64,000 nucleotides of DNA from Planctomycetota bacterium (GTDB lineage Bacteria > Planctomycetota > JAJSAM01 > JAJVHW01). Below are positions 11,270 to 33,822 of this stretch, in pieces (positions within the stretch are counted from its first letter, which is position 1; every line of letters begins with the position of its first letter). Location: assembly GCA_021776825.1 (NCBI GenBank), contig JAJFFG010000050.1:248001-312000 (forward strand), read 5' to 3'. A program made the translations under genes and the position numbers. The notes under the pieces are model-generated. The model was not told the DNA's origin and searched no databases. It worked only from the letters and a program-made list of their open reading frames with translations.

Positions 11270-12664
11270 CTATGAGCGGATCCGAGAGAGGAGTTCGCGC
11301 ATCTCCGGCACGCCGCCCTGGAAGAGTAGGTACCCGTCGTGCGGCTCGCGCTCCGTCATCTCGCCGGTGACGTTCTCCTGCATGAGTGCCGCCACCGCGT
11401 CGGGATCGTCCGGGTGCATCGCGAGGGCCCAGCCCAGCTTGATGAACGCGACCTCGGGCAGCATGTTCGCGAGCGGCAGCACGCCGCGCGCCAGGATCTC
11501 GCGACCGGTCTCGTACACCTGCATCTGCACGAAGCCCCAGAGCGTCTGGAGCGTCATGTAGATCTGCACGCCCGCGGCCGTCGCGCGCTCGATGGCGGGG
11601 AACAGCTTCGTGTTGACGTGACCGAGTCCCGTGCCGGCGATGACGATCCCGCGATAGCCACACCCGACCAGCGCGTCGAGCACGTCCGGGTTCATGTGCG
11701 GGTAGTAGTAGAGAATCGTCACTCGCTCGTCCCACACCGCATGCAACTGCGGGGGGCGATCGCTGCGGCGTTCCCGCCATCCGGTCTTCAGCGGAGAGAG
11801 GTGGCCCTCGGTCACCATCGCGAGCGGGATGTCGCCGATCGTGCGGAACGTGCTGCGGTACGAGCTGTGCATCTTGCGGACGCGGGTCCCGCGGTGCAGC
11901 AGGTTGTACGTGTCGGACGTCGGCCCGAACATGCAGACCATGACCTCGGCGATGGGGCCGTGCGCCGCGGTCCACGTCGCCGCGAGCAGGTTGCGTGCGG
12001 CATCCGAGGACGGGCGGTCGGACGAGCGCTGGCTGCCGACCATCACGATCGGGATTGGCGTGTCCTGCACCATGAAGGAGAGTGCAGCAGCCGTGTGATG
12101 CATCGTGTCGGTGCCGTGGCCGACGACCACACCGTCGTAGCCCTCTTCGATCGCCTCGACGACGCGCTCGGCCAACGTGAGCCAGTGCTCTCGGCCGATG
12201 TTCTCGCTGAACACGCCGAACAGCTTCTCGGTCTCGAGGTTGCAGATGTCCGCCAGCTCCGGGACCGAGCCGTAGAGCTCGCCTGGAGTGAAGGCCGGGA
12301 TCACGGCGCCCGTGCGGTAGTCCAGACGCGATGCGATCGTGCCGCCCGTCCCGAAGAGCCGGACTCGCGGCTTCGTCGGATCGCTCGGGAACTCTTCCTC
12401 GGGCACGCGGTAGACCGCCTCGCGGTAGCCCAGTACCTCGATGTTCTCGATGGTGTCGTGGCGGAGGCCGACGTTGTAGCCACTCTGGAGTTTCAGAACG
12501 ACGTGCTCGGCATCGGCGATCTCGCTGCGAGGGAGCACGAGTCCTTCGAAGGTCCCGCGCGTCGTGTGGGCGCGCACCTTCGACCAGACCGTCGCCTCGA
12601 AGCGACGCATCGTCGAGAGCGTCGGGTCGCGATAGCCCTTGTAGGCGTCGTCGGGGGCGCTCAT
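11270..12664 (-). CDS. gatD: Glutamyl-tRNA(Gln) amidotransferase subunit D (archaeal type)
   Basis: GatD is the asparaginase-like subunit that frees ammonia from glutamine for GatE, which amidates Glu-tRNA(Gln). The 464-residue product has a short N-terminal domain and then an asparaginase domain starting 'LFGTGGTIASRLDYRTGAV'. The catalytic set seen in archaeal GatD is complete: T109 (GGT), T185 and D186 (HGTDT), and K264 in 'RVRKMHSSYRSTF'. The last motif separates GatD from plain L-asparaginases. I chose the ATG at 12664, which overlaps the gatE stop by four bases; a longer frame upstream only reads gatE sequence. GatDE is regarded as an archaeal enzyme, so its presence here is unusual. 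Confidence 0.93.
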   Translation of the reverse strand: MSAPDDAYKGYRDPTLSTMRRFEATVWSKVRAHTTRGTFEGLVLPRSEIADAEHVVLKLQSGYNVGLRHDTIENIEVLGYREAVYRVPEEEFPSDPTKPRVRLFGTGGTIASRLDYRTGAVIPAFTPGELYGSVPELADICNLETEKLFGVFSENIGREHWLTLAERVVEAIEEGYDGVVVGHGTDTMHHTAAALSFMVQDTPIPIVMVGSQRSSDRPSSDAARNLLAATWTAAHGPIAEVMVCMFGPTSDTYNLLHRGTRVRKMHSSYRSTFRTIGDIPLAMVTEGHLSPLKTGWRERRSDRPPQLHAVWDERVTILYYYPHMNPDVLDALVGCGYRGIVIAGTGLGHVNTKLFPAIERATAAGVQIYMTLQTLWGFVQMQVYETGREILARGVLPLANMLPEVAFIKLGWALAMHPDDPDAVAALMQENVTGEMTEREPHDGYLLFQGGVPEMRELLSRIRS

Positions 12665-14727
12665 GCGGCGAGCTCCGGCGCGTCGCCGAGCCAGGCATCG
12701 ACGGCACTCCCGACGACCTGCGCCGGCAGTCGCCCGAGAAGAGCCGGCATGACGAGGCCCATCGCGAGACGGTGCGCGGCATCGCGCGGGAGATTCGGAG
12801 CGCGCTCGGTGCGCACCCACTCGATCTCCGACAGCCGGCGCTCGAGCTCCGCCCGATCGACGTCACCGCGTGCGGCGTAGCGATTCACAACTTCGTCCGG
12901 CGCCACGCCGGCGTCGCGCATCAGGTCGTCAAGAGCCGTGGCGAACGCCTGCGGGTGAACCGACTCGGCTTCGACCGCGGCGACCAACGGCCGCAAGCGA
13001 TCGGCGGATGGGAGTTCCGCACCGAGTGTGCGGCGATGATGGGGGAGACGGGTCTCGAACGCGTGGGCCAGTGCACCGGCGGACTCAGGGCCGGTCGGCG
13101 AGAGCGCGTCGAAGAGGTCGGCCCATGGCGCATCGACCAGCCGCGCGGCCACCGATCGTGAGAGCCCGGTGGCGACGTAGCGATCCTCGCGATCCCACGG
13201 GAGTTCCCCGACCGCCTCGTCCGCCGCGACGATCCATGTCTCCGGCACGGGCAGCGGCGGAGTGTCCGTGTCCGGATACATGCGCTGCGGCCCGGGCAGG
13301 ATGCGCTCGAGGCCCGTCGTCAGGTCGCCGTACGACTGCCGCGTCTCGGAAGGGACGCCGTCGAGTGCGTCCTGAGCGCGGATCAGGATCTCGCGGACCG
13401 CCGTGTCGACATCGGCAGCGGCACCCCACACGACCAGCATCGCATCGCGACTCTCGGCGGAGAGCGCGGCGCGGACCCGCCGCCACGTCGACGCCTTCAG
13501 GCCATAGTCCTGGAGGTGCGAGGAGATCATGAACGGGCGAGCGGTGAGGCAGGCGATGACGCGCACTCGATCGGCGAACTCGTGCGCGAAGGTCATCCCT
13601 GGCTGAAGCCGACGGCCGAGTAGATCGTCGAAGCGCGGTAGACGCACGGCGGCGATGAAGTCCCCGCGCGCCAAGGCATCGGCCACGGGCGGGTAGCCAC
13701 AGCCGCGGAGCGCCCGCCGTGCATCGACGGCGAGTGACGACTCCCATGCGACGCCGACCTCGGGGATCGTGAGCTGATCCTTCGTGACGCCGCGGTCGAG
13801 CAGCTCGGCTCGCAGTTTCAGCAGCTCCAGTTGACGGAACGCCTCGATGTGCACGAGACGCGGTAGCCCACGGTGATGAGCGACGCCCTTGATCTCGACG
13901 CGGCGGCCGCCCGCGATCGACACGTTCACGTCCTGCCGCGCCGCACCCGGACCACGGCGGACGGCACCGCTCGTGTGGACGACTCGCGAGAGCAGTCGCC
14001 CCCCAGCCGCAACGTCGAGGGGCGTCAGCAGATCCGGCTCCGTCACCGTCTCGACCAGCGGCGTACCGAGCCGATCGGTGCGGAACGTGATGAGGTGACC
14101 GACGTCGGACACCTCGCGACAGGAGTCTTCCTCGAGCGTCAACTGCCGGATGCGGATCACTTGGTCGCGCCCGAGTTCACTCTCGCGGAACGGGATCTCG
14201 CCGCCGACGGCGATCATCGCCGAGCGCTGGAAGCCCGCGGGGATGGACCCGTCGAGGTACTGCTTGCGCATGACCTGCAGCTCGGAGACGAGCGAGAGTC
14301 CGAACAGGCGCGAAACGTGAAGCGCGACCCGCACGGCTTCCTCGTCGATCTCGAACGGCGGCGTGTCGTCCATCTCGTACGTACAGACGGTGCTCCGTTC
14401 GAGCAGGTAGACGATGTCCTTGCGCGTCTTGAACTCCATCAGCGCGCAGCCGTCGTACTGACCGAGCTCCGACAGCGTGGGCCGCATGTGACGCAGCACT
14501 TCGCCGTCGACGCGCGCCGTCGAGCGTCCTGCCGGACAGCGGCAGAACAGTTTGCTGCGCGTTGCGAGTTGCTGGTGCACCTCGAGCCCGCAGATGAAGC
14601 CGAGCCGGTCGTAGTCGTCCGGAGTGAGGTGCCCGTAGTCGTGGAACGGGAAGTCGAGTGGTGTGTCGGTCCGAGGGTTGAGGTCGAACGGGTCCGGTGG
14701 CGCGGCCTTGAAGAGGTTGCGGATCAT
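12661..14727 (-). CDS. gatE: Glutamyl-tRNA(Gln) amidotransferase subunit E (archaeal type)
   Basis: GatE phosphorylates and amidates Glu-tRNA(Gln) using ammonia from GatD. The 688-residue product opens with the family hallmark 'GLEVHQQL' near residue 46 and 'SKLFCRCP', shared with GatB. It continues through the kinase/amidotransferase cradle ('RQLTLEEDSCREVS', 'EIKGVAHHRGLP'), holds the extra GAD-type insertion (about residues 290-400) that distinguishes GatE from bacterial GatB, and ends with a YqeY-type helical tail (about 560-688). Length agrees with archaeal GatE (about 620-640) rather than GatB (about 480). Four-base overlaps on both sides tie it to glnS and gatD. Confidence 0.93.
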   Translation of the reverse strand: MIRNLFKAAPPDPFDLNPRTDTPLDFPFHDYGHLTPDDYDRLGFICGLEVHQQLATRSKLFCRCPAGRSTARVDGEVLRHMRPTLSELGQYDGCALMEFKTRKDIVYLLERSTVCTYEMDDTPPFEIDEEAVRVALHVSRLFGLSLVSELQVMRKQYLDGSIPAGFQRSAMIAVGGEIPFRESELGRDQVIRIRQLTLEEDSCREVSDVGHLITFRTDRLGTPLVETVTEPDLLTPLDVAAGGRLLSRVVHTSGAVRRGPGAARQDVNVSIAGGRRVEIKGVAHHRGLPRLVHIEAFRQLELLKLRAELLDRGVTKDQLTIPEVGVAWESSLAVDARRALRGCGYPPVADALARGDFIAAVRLPRFDDLLGRRLQPGMTFAHEFADRVRVIACLTARPFMISSHLQDYGLKASTWRRVRAALSAESRDAMLVVWGAAADVDTAVREILIRAQDALDGVPSETRQSYGDLTTGLERILPGPQRMYPDTDTPPLPVPETWIVAADEAVGELPWDREDRYVATGLSRSVAARLVDAPWADLFDALSPTGPESAGALAHAFETRLPHHRRTLGAELPSADRLRPLVAAVEAESVHPQAFATALDDLMRDAGVAPDEVVNRYAARGDVDRAELERRLSEIEWVRTERAPNLPRDAAHRLAMGLVMPALLGRLPAQVVGSAVDAWLGDAPELAA

Positions 14728-17066
14728 CCCTCGCCGGTTCCCTGTCCCGATTCTCGTCCCAGGCGTTCGACGACGAGACGCCGCACGAGGTCCGGTTTCG
14801 CGGTGCCGCGCGTCTCCTTCATGACCCGACCCACGAAGAAGCCGAGGAGACCCGTCTTGCCACCGCGATACCGCGCGACCTCGTCTGGGTGCGCCGCCAG
14901 AACGCCGTCGACGGCCGGCCCGAGCGTACCGGTGTCGCTGACCTGTTCGAGATGGCGCTGGCGAACGATTGCTTCGGGATCGGCGCCATCGGTGGCAACT
15001 GCCGCGAAGACCTCCTTGGCGGCCGTGGCCGAGATGCGGTCACTCGTCACCATCGTCACGATGGCAGCGAGCACCGTCGGCGCCATCCCGAGTGTGGACG
15101 GATCGTCGCCGTCGACGGCGGGAAGCACCTCGTTCACGACCCACTTGGCGACGGCGGATGTGTCGGCGGCGGATGCCGCAGCATCGAAGTAGTCGGCAAT
15201 CGCGGCGCTGCGCGTCAGCGTGTGCGCATCCTGCGGGTCCAGACCGAGCACGCCGGTGTAGCGGTCGAAGCGATCGGCGAGGTCCGGGTCGCCTGCTTCC
15301 CACACGCGCGCCGCCGCTGGCGCCGGCTTGGTCTTCGGGCGGCGGACTCGAGCAGCTGGCTTCGGCGCGTCGCGCTTGCCCCACGAGTCGCGGAGCGTGA
15401 CGGTGCGATTGAGGACCGGGGACCCGGGGCGCGAGTCCTCGGTGTCGGCAATGAAGTACCCGACGCGCTCGAGCTGGAAGCGATCACCCGGGCGCGCGTC
15501 GGCCAGTTCGGGCTCGGCCATCGCAGCGGGGATGACGGTCAGCGACTCGGGGTTGAGCTCGTCGACGAAGTCGACCTCGGGGTCACGACCTGGCCGTGCA
15601 ACGGCGAACAGTCGGTCGTAGAGGCGCAGCTCGAGCGAGCGCCCGTGCACCGCGGACACCCAGTGGATCGTGCCGCGAACGCGGCGATCGGTCGGCGCAC
15701 TCCCGAGCGTGTCGCGATCGGCGCTACACCTCAGTTCGACGATCTCGCCGGCACCGTCGAGCACCACGTCGTCGCAACGGATCACGTAGCCGTGGCGCAG
15801 GCGGACCTCGCCGCCCGGCGTGAGACGGTGCCAGCCCTTCGGCGGGTCCACGCGGAAGTCGTCGCGCTCGATCCAGATCTCGCGCGTGAGGTGCAAGGCG
15901 CGCGACCCCTCGTGCGGAACGTCATGCGGCCAGAGCGGAGCTTCGATGCGCTCGTCGTGATCCTCAGGCAGGTTCGTGAGAACGACGCGCAGGGGATGGA
16001 GCACACACATCAGACGCGGCGAGCGGAGATTCAGGTCCTCGCGCACGCAGTACTCGAGCTTGCCGAGGTCGATGACGCTGTTGGCCTTGCTGATGCCCAC
16101 GAGGGAGTTGAGCGCACGGAGCGCCTCGCTCGTCACGCCGCGGCGGCGCAGGCCGCGCAGCGTGGACATGCGGGGATCGTCCCACCCGCTGACGTGTCCC
16201 TCTTCGACGAGCCGGCGCATGTAGCGCTTGCTCATCAGCACGTAGTCGAGCTCGAGTCGTGCGAACTCGAACTGACGCGGTCGTGGCTCCGGCCAGACCG
16301 ACTCGAGGACCCAGTCGTACAGCGCCCGATTGATCTCGAACTCGAGCGTGCAGAACGAGTGGGTCACGCCCTCGATGGCGTCTTCGATGCAGTGCGCGAA
16401 GTCATACATCGGGTAGATGCACCACGCATCGCCCGTGCGGTGGTGCGTCGCGTGCCGAATGCGATAGAGCAGCGGATCGCGCAGGAGCATGTTGGGCGAC
16501 GCCATGTCGAGCTTCGCCCGCAGCACGTGCGTGCCATCCGCGAACTCGCCTGCCCGCATGCGGCGGAACAGATCGAGGTTCTCGTCGACGCTGCGATCGC
16601 GGTAGCGGCTCGCCGTGCCCGCCTCGGAGACGGTCCCACGATGCTCGCGGATCTCGTCGATCGACTCGCTGTCGACGTACGCCCGACCGTCCTGCACGAG
16701 GCGTTCGGCCAGCTCGTACATCTGTGCGAAGTAGTCCGACGCGAACCGCACCGGACCGTCCCACGTGCAGCCGAGCCAGGTGATGTCCGCCTGGATCGCC
16801 TCGACGAAGCGCGTGTCTTCGGCGAGCGGGTTCGTGTCGTCGAAGCGCAGGTGGAAGTGTCCACCGTGCTCCCGCGCCACGTCGTGGTCGAGAAGGATGG
16901 CCTTCGCGTGCCCGATGTGGAGGAAGCCGTTCGGCTCCGGGGGGAATCGCGTGACGACGCGCGCGAGGCCGGCGGCGACGTCCTTCGCGACAATGTCGCG
17001 GATGAAGTCGGAACGCCGCCGGCTCACGCCGTCGGATGGGGTGTCGGTCGAATCCGTCTCTGCCAT
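14724..17066 (-). CDS. glnS: Glutaminyl-tRNA synthetase with C-terminal YqeY domain
   Basis: This class I synthetase charges tRNA(Gln) directly with glutamine. It shows HIGH at residues 50-53 within 'PPEPNGFLHIGHAKAI', a KMSKS-type loop reduced to 'VLMSKRYM' near 275, and the GlnRS anticodon-binding beta barrels up to about 560. A linker rich in Pro/Ala/Lys then leads to a GatB/YqeY-type tail (about 595-775), an arrangement known from Deinococcus GlnRS. Its C-terminal tail is of the same family as the tail of GatE encoded next door. It is the first gene of the coupled glnS-gatE-gatD cluster, which therefore encodes both known routes to Gln-tRNA(Gln). Confidence 0.95.
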   Translation of the reverse strand: MAETDSTDTPSDGVSRRRSDFIRDIVAKDVAAGLARVVTRFPPEPNGFLHIGHAKAILLDHDVAREHGGHFHLRFDDTNPLAEDTRFVEAIQADITWLGCTWDGPVRFASDYFAQMYELAERLVQDGRAYVDSESIDEIREHRGTVSEAGTASRYRDRSVDENLDLFRRMRAGEFADGTHVLRAKLDMASPNMLLRDPLLYRIRHATHHRTGDAWCIYPMYDFAHCIEDAIEGVTHSFCTLEFEINRALYDWVLESVWPEPRPRQFEFARLELDYVLMSKRYMRRLVEEGHVSGWDDPRMSTLRGLRRRGVTSEALRALNSLVGISKANSVIDLGKLEYCVREDLNLRSPRLMCVLHPLRVVLTNLPEDHDERIEAPLWPHDVPHEGSRALHLTREIWIERDDFRVDPPKGWHRLTPGGEVRLRHGYVIRCDDVVLDGAGEIVELRCSADRDTLGSAPTDRRVRGTIHWVSAVHGRSLELRLYDRLFAVARPGRDPEVDFVDELNPESLTVIPAAMAEPELADARPGDRFQLERVGYFIADTEDSRPGSPVLNRTVTLRDSWGKRDAPKPAARVRRPKTKPAPAAARVWEAGDPDLADRFDRYTGVLGLDPQDAHTLTRSAAIADYFDAAASAADTSAVAKWVVNEVLPAVDGDDPSTLGMAPTVLAAIVTMVTSDRISATAAKEVFAAVATDGADPEAIVRQRHLEQVSDTGTLGPAVDGVLAAHPDEVARYRGGKTGLLGFFVGRVMKETRGTAKPDLVRRLVVERLGRESGQGTGEG

Positions 17067-33339: not shown

Positions 33340-33348
33340 ATGGACGTC

Positions 33349-33822
33349 ATGGCCCAACGGAAGGGCAAGGCTCCCGAGGCGCAGCCCGAGATCGGGAACC
33401 CGCGGGCGCGCTACAAGTTCGAGATCCTCGAGACGCTCGAGTGCGGCATCGCCCTCGAGGGGCCGGAGGTCAAGAGTCTCCGTGAGGGGCAGGCCAGCCT
33501 CGAGGAGGGGTACGCCCGATTCCGCAAGGGCGAGCTCTGGCTCTACGGAGTCCACATCGCCGAGTACTCGCGGAAGGGCTACGCGACGCACGAGCCCCTG
33601 CGGCCCCGGAAACTGCTGGTCCGACGGCGCGAGATCGAGCATCTGAAGAAGCTCGTCGAGCGCAAGGGACTGACCCTCGTGCCGCTCCGCCTGTACTTCA
33701 CCGAGCGTCACCTCGCGAAGGTCGAGATCGCGTTGGCGAAGGGCCGGAAGGTGGCCGACAAGCGCCAGGCAGCCAAGGAGAAGGACGCGAAGCGCGAGAT
33801 GCGACGGGCCGGCGGGCGGTAA
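33349..33822 (+). CDS. smpB: SsrA-binding protein SmpB
   Basis: SmpB binds the tRNA-like end of tmRNA and brings it to stalled ribosomes. The 157-residue basic protein has the family core 'NPRARYKFEILETLECGIAL', 'GPEVKSLREGQASLEEGYA', 'HIAEYSRKGYATHEPLRPRK' and a Lys/Arg-rich C-terminal tail that reads into the mRNA channel. The ribosome site at 33334 supports the ATG at 33349. Its RNA partner ssrA starts 1.9 kb downstream. Confidence 0.95.
   Translation: MAQRKGKAPEAQPEIGNPRARYKFEILETLECGIALEGPEVKSLREGQASLEEGYARFRKGELWLYGVHIAEYSRKGYATHEPLRPRKLLVRRREIEHLKKLVERKGLTLVPLRLYFTERHLAKVEIALAKGRKVADKRQAAKEKDAKREMRRAGGR

Follow-up and report, generated by a model that had tools for sequence, protein, structure and literature searches.

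A stretch of 64,000 nucleotides from the genome of a Planctomycetota bacterium (positions 248,001 to 312,000 of contig JAJFFG010000050.1; hereafter the window) contains a three-gene operon that encodes a glutaminyl-tRNA synthetase with a C-terminal YqeY domain (GlnRS) together with GatE and GatD, the two subunits of an amidotransferase, GatDE, that has been described as confined to archaea (PMC9499178, PMC8007984). We find that GatDE is widespread in bacteria, usually alongside GlnRS, and that the rule 'GatDE only in archaea' is out of date and is not a functional criterion. Family membership, conserved residues and genomic distribution incline us to the view that the operon specifies a working bacterial GatDE amidotransferase that runs in parallel with GlnRS. 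An earlier, sequence-only reading of the window had called GatDE archaea-specific, which is how the literature describes it although the pair occurs in bacteria of many phyla, and had suggested a hedge between two charging routes, which comes close to the best-supported interpretation. Reviews have used the statements that GatDE occurs only in archaea and GlnRS never in archaea to infer co-evolution of tRNAGln, GlnRS and amidotransferase from the last common ancestor; the broad bacterial GatDE clade, mostly found beside GlnRS, breaks that archaea-only rule. A literature search on bacterial GatD and GatE found no paper on the subject. Bacteria with both GatDE and GlnRS, one of them cultured, allow the two routes to be tested jointly, and why a cell should keep both becomes a testable question.

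Three proteins encoded in one overlapping operon

Curated family models and matches to solved structures bear out the identities first assigned to the three proteins (Table 1), with all scores above the curated cut-offs except that of GatE against a second GatE model, PRK04028 (447 bits, just below the cut-off of 456). GlnRS has the catalytic and anticodon domains and the YqeY tail of a GlnRS/YqeY fusion; its alignments with its closest solved structures, 5bnz and E. coli GlnRS, span the whole GlnRS part, and it retains the motifs HSFCTLEF, PRQFEF and YPMYDF. Its family and these conserved active-site motifs suggest that it attaches glutamine to tRNAGln, and the conservation of the motifs led us to reject the possibility that it is a disguised tRNAGln-specific GluRS.

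GatE consists of a GatB-type catalytic domain (GatB_N), a GAD insertion and a helical tail. Its AlphaFold model, computed from 51 aligned bacterial sequences (predicted local distance difference test, pLDDT, 88; predicted template modelling score, pTM, 0.87), has 1zq1_C as its top Foldseek match (E 6.6e-45) and forms confident helices throughout the tail, which matches a profile built from the tails of other GatE proteins (E 1e-24). Two YqeY-type tails had been claimed: that of GlnRS is clear, whereas that of GatE is YqeY-type only in a broad sense, having diverged too far to be matched by the Pfam YqeY model PF02637. Loss of the GatE tail with GlnRS supplying one in its place was rejected, since the GatE tail is present though diverged and tailed GlnRS does not track GatE subtype. 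GatD joins an N-terminal GatD domain (GatD_N) to an asparaginase domain whose T-T-D-K catalytic set (T109, T185, D186 and K264) lies at exactly the positions originally given. For both GatD and GatE the closest solved structures are those of archaeal GatDE (1zq1, 2d6f).

The genes follow the order glnS-YqeY, gatE, gatD on the minus strand and are coupled by two 4-base overlaps, both ATGA, as had been read from the sequence. The operon is kept, with a 4-base overlap at each junction, in two sister genomes (G027 and G052); because it recurs there in this form, it is not an assembly chimera.

Distribution of GatDE among bacteria

Among 84,980 species genomes scanned, we recovered at least 585 GatE relatives, the best 80 of which, classified from their record titles, are all bacterial; with more than 500 loci and these 80 all bacterial, GatDE is not restricted to archaea. 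The best 80 come from Myxococcota, Gemmatimonadota, Acidobacteriota, Krumholzibacteriota, Ignavibacteria, Kapabacteria, Caldithrix, Latescibacterota, Neomarinimicrobiota, Aminicenantes, Fermentibacteria, Elusimicrobia and Planctomycetota, and include closed chromosomes and the cultured Paraliomyxa miuraensis (Myxococcota). GatD adjoins GatE in nearly all bacterial loci, and across phyla GatE has stayed intact with 38-62% identity. Of 56 GatE-positive bacterial genomes, 45 encode GlnRS (43 above the cut-off, two partial); GatE is the sole GatB_N protein in 29 of the 56 and is accompanied by GatB in 27. Twenty-five of the 45 genomes with both GlnRS and GatE are without GatB, one of them a complete Ignavibacteria genome. 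Most bacterial GatDE loci have no adjoining GlnRS in the DNA examined around them.

Within the window's phylum, GatE occurs in about 22 of 392 genomes, scattered over many families, and within its order in six of nine. Viral contigs and plasmids were rejected as carriers: GatE was not found in viral contigs, and the plasmid matches listed for GatD were asparaginases of about 30% identity, with no full-length GatD among them. In P. miuraensis (L073), a possible laboratory model, genes for GatE, GatD and a GlnRS that has no tail follow one another on the same strand, and GatB is encoded too. Three genomes of the window's phylum (G108, G248 and G073) have GatDE with neither GlnRS nor GatB detected.

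Phylogeny of GatE and GatD

The database searches and trees proposed in the sequence-only reading place the pair in a bacterial GatDE clade. The GatE of the window falls within a clade of 15 rows (Shimodaira-Hasegawa-like approximate likelihood ratio test, SH-aLRT, 100) with sequences from Planctomycetota, Myxococcota, Gemmatimonadota, Acidobacteriota and Krumholzibacteriota, and long branches part the bacterial clade from the two archaeal references included in the trees. The GatD tree recovers the same main groups, and the two subunits, encoded side by side in most loci, evolve together. Neither tree keeps the phyla apart, an indication of transfer between bacteria. Recent acquisition from archaea, raised as a possible origin of the operon, is not supported: the bacterial sequences cluster apart from the two archaeal references, and the guanine-plus-cytosine (GC) content of the operon genes (67-69%) matches that of the window (68.8%).

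The window's family appears to hold two GatDE lineages, one in the window's own genome (G000), G027 and G052 and the other in G090. Its YqeY-GlnRS sequences, by contrast, fall into a single supported group, consistent with one inherited gene. This contrast suggests that the family gained GatDE on more than one occasion, next to a GlnRS that it already had. G090 (L057, L358) has a related YqeY-GlnRS, its different bacterial GatDE lineage is unlinked to glnS, and it encodes GatB as well.

Synthetases, amidotransferases and tRNAs of the genome

Family searches of the window's own genome identified one GluRS, one GluQRS and the GlnRS, together with AsnRS, a bacterial AspRS, EpmA and a fourth member, a frame of 502 amino acids (aa) that was not scanned with family models and is taken to be LysRS. 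The presence of AsnRS, which the sequence-only reading had proposed to look for along with gatCAB, means that asparagine needs no amidotransferase. GatB was not found: GatE is the only GatB_N protein in the genome, and GatB models score at most 137 bits against cut-offs of at least 315 (GatA and GatC were not searched). GatDE is therefore the only GatB/GatE-type amidotransferase found. No second YqeY (PF02637) domain was detected in the genome, the GlnRS tail being the only match. GluRS has Arg at the equivalent of E. coli Arg350, a residue that is a mark of discrimination in some GluRS, as it does in G012, G062, G099, G108 and G146, genomes without a detected GlnRS; this anticodon-reading residue is thus not diagnostic and was rejected as a measure of GluRS discrimination. 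In many other bacteria with GatDE (G412 (L374), G403, G418, G422, G424, G425, G426 and G429), glnS is no more than about 1-3 kb away from a gltX-like gene, a second linkage between synthetase genes that may matter for a dual route.

The tRNA searches recovered one tRNAGln(UUG), one tRNAGln(CUG), tRNAGlu(CUC) and tRNAGlu(UUC). The tRNAGln(CUG) (G000:C78:7774-7844; L189) belongs to a tRNAGlu-like D-stem class and has A73 and an encoded CCA; the tRNAGln(UUG) (G000:C129:111270-111340; L185) belongs to an archaeal/eukaryote-like D-stem class and has U73 and U13-A22. tRNAGln(CUG) shares its D-stem with the tRNAGlu of its own genome; it has U11-A24, U13-G22 and A46 and lacks residue 47, exactly the combination listed as major tRNAGlu determinants in a study that also describes a GluRS charging augmented-D tRNAs, one tRNAGln among them (PMC9976931). 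Within the phylum sample the full determinant set is confined to the window's family. Both tRNAGln have the same 7-base D-loop (AATGGCA), which differs from the 11-base loop of tRNAGlu(CUC); GatDE is reported to read the D-loop (PMC9499178). CAG is the main glutamine codon in the operon genes. In G248 (L049, L244) the two tRNAGln lie in tandem and both fall into the archaeal-like D-stem class; this bacterium may run a purely archaeal-style route.

When the GlnRS-positive genomes of the phylum are compared, a Glu-like D-stem is seen in a tRNAGln of 9 of 10 that have GatE and of 1 of 14 that lack it (Fisher 7e-5), or in 6/6 against 1/10 when counted by family (p 9e-4). The window's own tRNA served to define the class, the comparison genomes were selected by hand from the more complete ones, and only one tRNAGln isoacceptor was recovered in one GatE genome and two others. 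We treat the association between D-stem class and GatE as an exploratory lead.

Proposed pathway and alternatives

The amidation reaction, the source of Glu-tRNAGln and any isoacceptor split or complex are inferred, and the scheme has four steps: direct loading of glutamine onto tRNAGln by GlnRS, as its family and conserved motifs suggest; glutamylation of some tRNAGln by the single GluRS, most plausibly of tRNAGln(CUG), because its D-arm and variable loop carry known tRNAGlu determinants; release of ammonia from glutamine or asparagine at the T-T-D-K site of GatD, with GatE reading the tRNAGln D-loop, activating the glutamate and amidating it to Gln-tRNAGln, all as in the archaeal homologues; and joint production of the three proteins from the overlapping operon, which may serve to let little Glu-tRNAGln reach the ribosome. 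If GatDE acts on Glu-tRNAGln, some enzyme must make this substrate, and the single GluRS is the only candidate found. A stricter version, which we offer tentatively and consider rather doubtful, divides the isoacceptors: GlnRS would charge tRNAGln(UUG), and the tRNAGlu-like tRNAGln(CUG), the one that reads the main glutamine codon, would be glutamylated by GluRS and amidated by GatDE co-translated, and perhaps complexed, with GlnRS. Such a split, if true, would be a direct example of the tRNAs of one amino acid shared between direct and indirect routes.

Several observations count against the four-step scheme. The absence of GatB from incomplete metagenome-assembled genomes may be a mere gap, and the idea that GlnRS is especially common among GatE genomes of the phylum had to be rejected, as it is found in 10 of 22 of them and in 203 of 392 genomes overall. 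The D-stem association is post hoc, with families that are not phylogenetically independent and relatedness only partly controlled, and it disappears in genomes that lack GlnRS (3/7 with GatE, 4/9 without). The base pair that separates the classes, 12-23, is not a known GluRS determinant, and many tRNAGln of the other D-stem class also have U11-A24 and U13-G22. Finally, the tRNAGln here have U1-A72, unlike the A1-U72 reported to be used by archaeal GatDE.

GatDE might instead be a general proofreader with no isoacceptor preference, which amidates the error when GluRS occasionally mischarges any tRNAGln while GlnRS does nearly all of the work. The D-loop read by GatE is identical in both tRNAGln here, and GatDE co-occurs with GlnRS whether GatB is present or not, as a proofreader would allow; such a role leaves the D-stem association unexplained and is at odds with the lack of GatDE in most GlnRS-bearing genomes of the phylum, and we rate its probability as low, though appreciable. 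Physical association is a further idea: GlnRS-YqeY and GatDE would assemble into a transamidosome that includes GlnRS. Either the YqeY tail would keep tRNAGln bound for use by the two enzymes, or the Glu-tRNAGln would come from GlnRS itself. Conservation of the overlapping operon in three genomes of two genera is consistent with such a complex, an archaeal GluRS:GatDE complex is known (PMC9499178), and in Deinococcus the YqeY tail increases the affinity of GlnRS for tRNAGln (PMC3927822). It is nevertheless unlikely, given active-site motifs in GlnRS that look standard for glutamine, the scarcity of adjoining GlnRS genes noted above, and the lack of linkage between YqeY tail and GatE subtype: G090 combines a tailed GlnRS with another, unlinked GatDE, and G393, G396, G397, G398, G400 and G044 are without the tail.

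Retention of all catalytic motifs of both enzymes and of the gene overlaps, together with the intactness of GatE across phyla, makes it quite improbable that one route is vestigial, with GatDE a relic or with GlnRS inactive and GluRS-GatDE the sole route, even if neither GlnRS nor GatB was detected beside GatDE in G108, G248 and G073. Another bacterial role for GatD or GatDE unrelated to tRNAGln, for example as an asparaginase/glutaminase or in nitrogen metabolism, would suit the homology of GatD to type I asparaginases; adjacency of GatE and GatD in almost all bacterial loci, the broad agreement of their trees and the inclusion of GlnRS in the operon render it very improbable, and we know of no role for GatE without tRNA.

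Comparison with known systems

Both subunits resemble archaeal GatDE (Pyrococcus abyssi, 1zq1; Methanothermobacter, 2d6f, with tRNAGln) in being full length and in all domains, catalytic residues and fold; they differ in that a long branch of its own sets the bacterial clade apart from the two references, the GatE tail has diverged, the genes are encoded with GlnRS, which archaea reportedly lack, and the first base pair of tRNAGln is not the archaeal one. The Deinococcus-type tailed GlnRS (2hz7; NF011291) has the same domain order as the GlnRS described here and is paired with GatCAB, whereas here the partner in the operon is GatDE. Enzymes of direct and indirect amide aminoacylation also coexist in bacteria with GlnRS and GatCAB (Thermus, Deinococcus, Pseudomonas and Bdellovibrio), where GatCAB is usually explained by Asn-tRNAAsn synthesis; that explanation is not applicable to GatDE, because archaeal GatDE acts only on Glu-tRNAGln. 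In Acidithiobacillus ferrooxidans, which has GluRS1 and GluRS2, an augmented-D tRNAGln is charged by the ordinary GluRS (PMC9976931), as proposed here; the other enzyme there is GluRS2, whereas here it would be GlnRS, with GatDE as the amidotransferase.

Genomic context

The operon lies on a 369-kb contig of a 133-contig assembly (genome 6.88 Mb, 93.6% complete). The number of contigs leaves room in principle for archaeal contamination or a chimeric contig, a concern already raised in the sequence-only reading, but such an artefact is scarcely credible: the contig is bacterial, with a transfer-messenger RNA inside the window, neighbouring open reading frames that by eye look like FabF/FabG/FabD/PlsX, and matching GC content; two sister genomes carry the same operon; and the same clade is found in cultured and closed bacterial genomes.

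Table 1. Features of the operon, in window coordinates
Feature	Position	Strand	Evidence
glnS, GlnRS with C-terminal YqeY domain	14724..17066	-	780 aa; NF011291, 1059 bits (cut-off 681); TIGR00440, 660 bits; alignments to PDB 5bnz and E. coli GlnRS
YqeY tail of GlnRS, residues 625-769	14760..15194	-	PF02637, E 1.3e-35
gatE, tRNA-binding/transamidase subunit	12661..14727	-	688 aa; TIGR00134, 367 bits (cut-off 319.55); PDB 1zq1_C, E 1e-84
GAD insertion of GatE, residues 350-443	13399..13680	-	PF02938, 27 bits (cut-off 23.4)
Helical tail of GatE, residues 496-681, diverged from YqeY	12685..13242	-	modelled helices; profile of other GatE tails
gatD, glutaminase/asparaginase-like subunit	11270..12664	-	464 aa; T109, T185, D186, K264; TIGR02153, 492 bits (cut-off 324); PDB 1zq1_A, E 4e-113
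4-base ATGA overlap, glnS stop / gatE start	14724..14727	-	sequence; GTGA at the matching junction in sister genomes G027 and G052
4-base ATGA overlap, gatE stop / gatD start	12661..12664	-	sequence; same in sister genomes G027 and G052

A longer open reading frame for gatD, from 12820, exists and is not needed for the 464-aa GatD. ARAGORN also reported an unusual tRNA, its anticodon four bases long (gagg), at positions 33341-33440 of the window, about 100 bases from a tRNA-Leu(cag) on the opposite strand, which is probably spurious.

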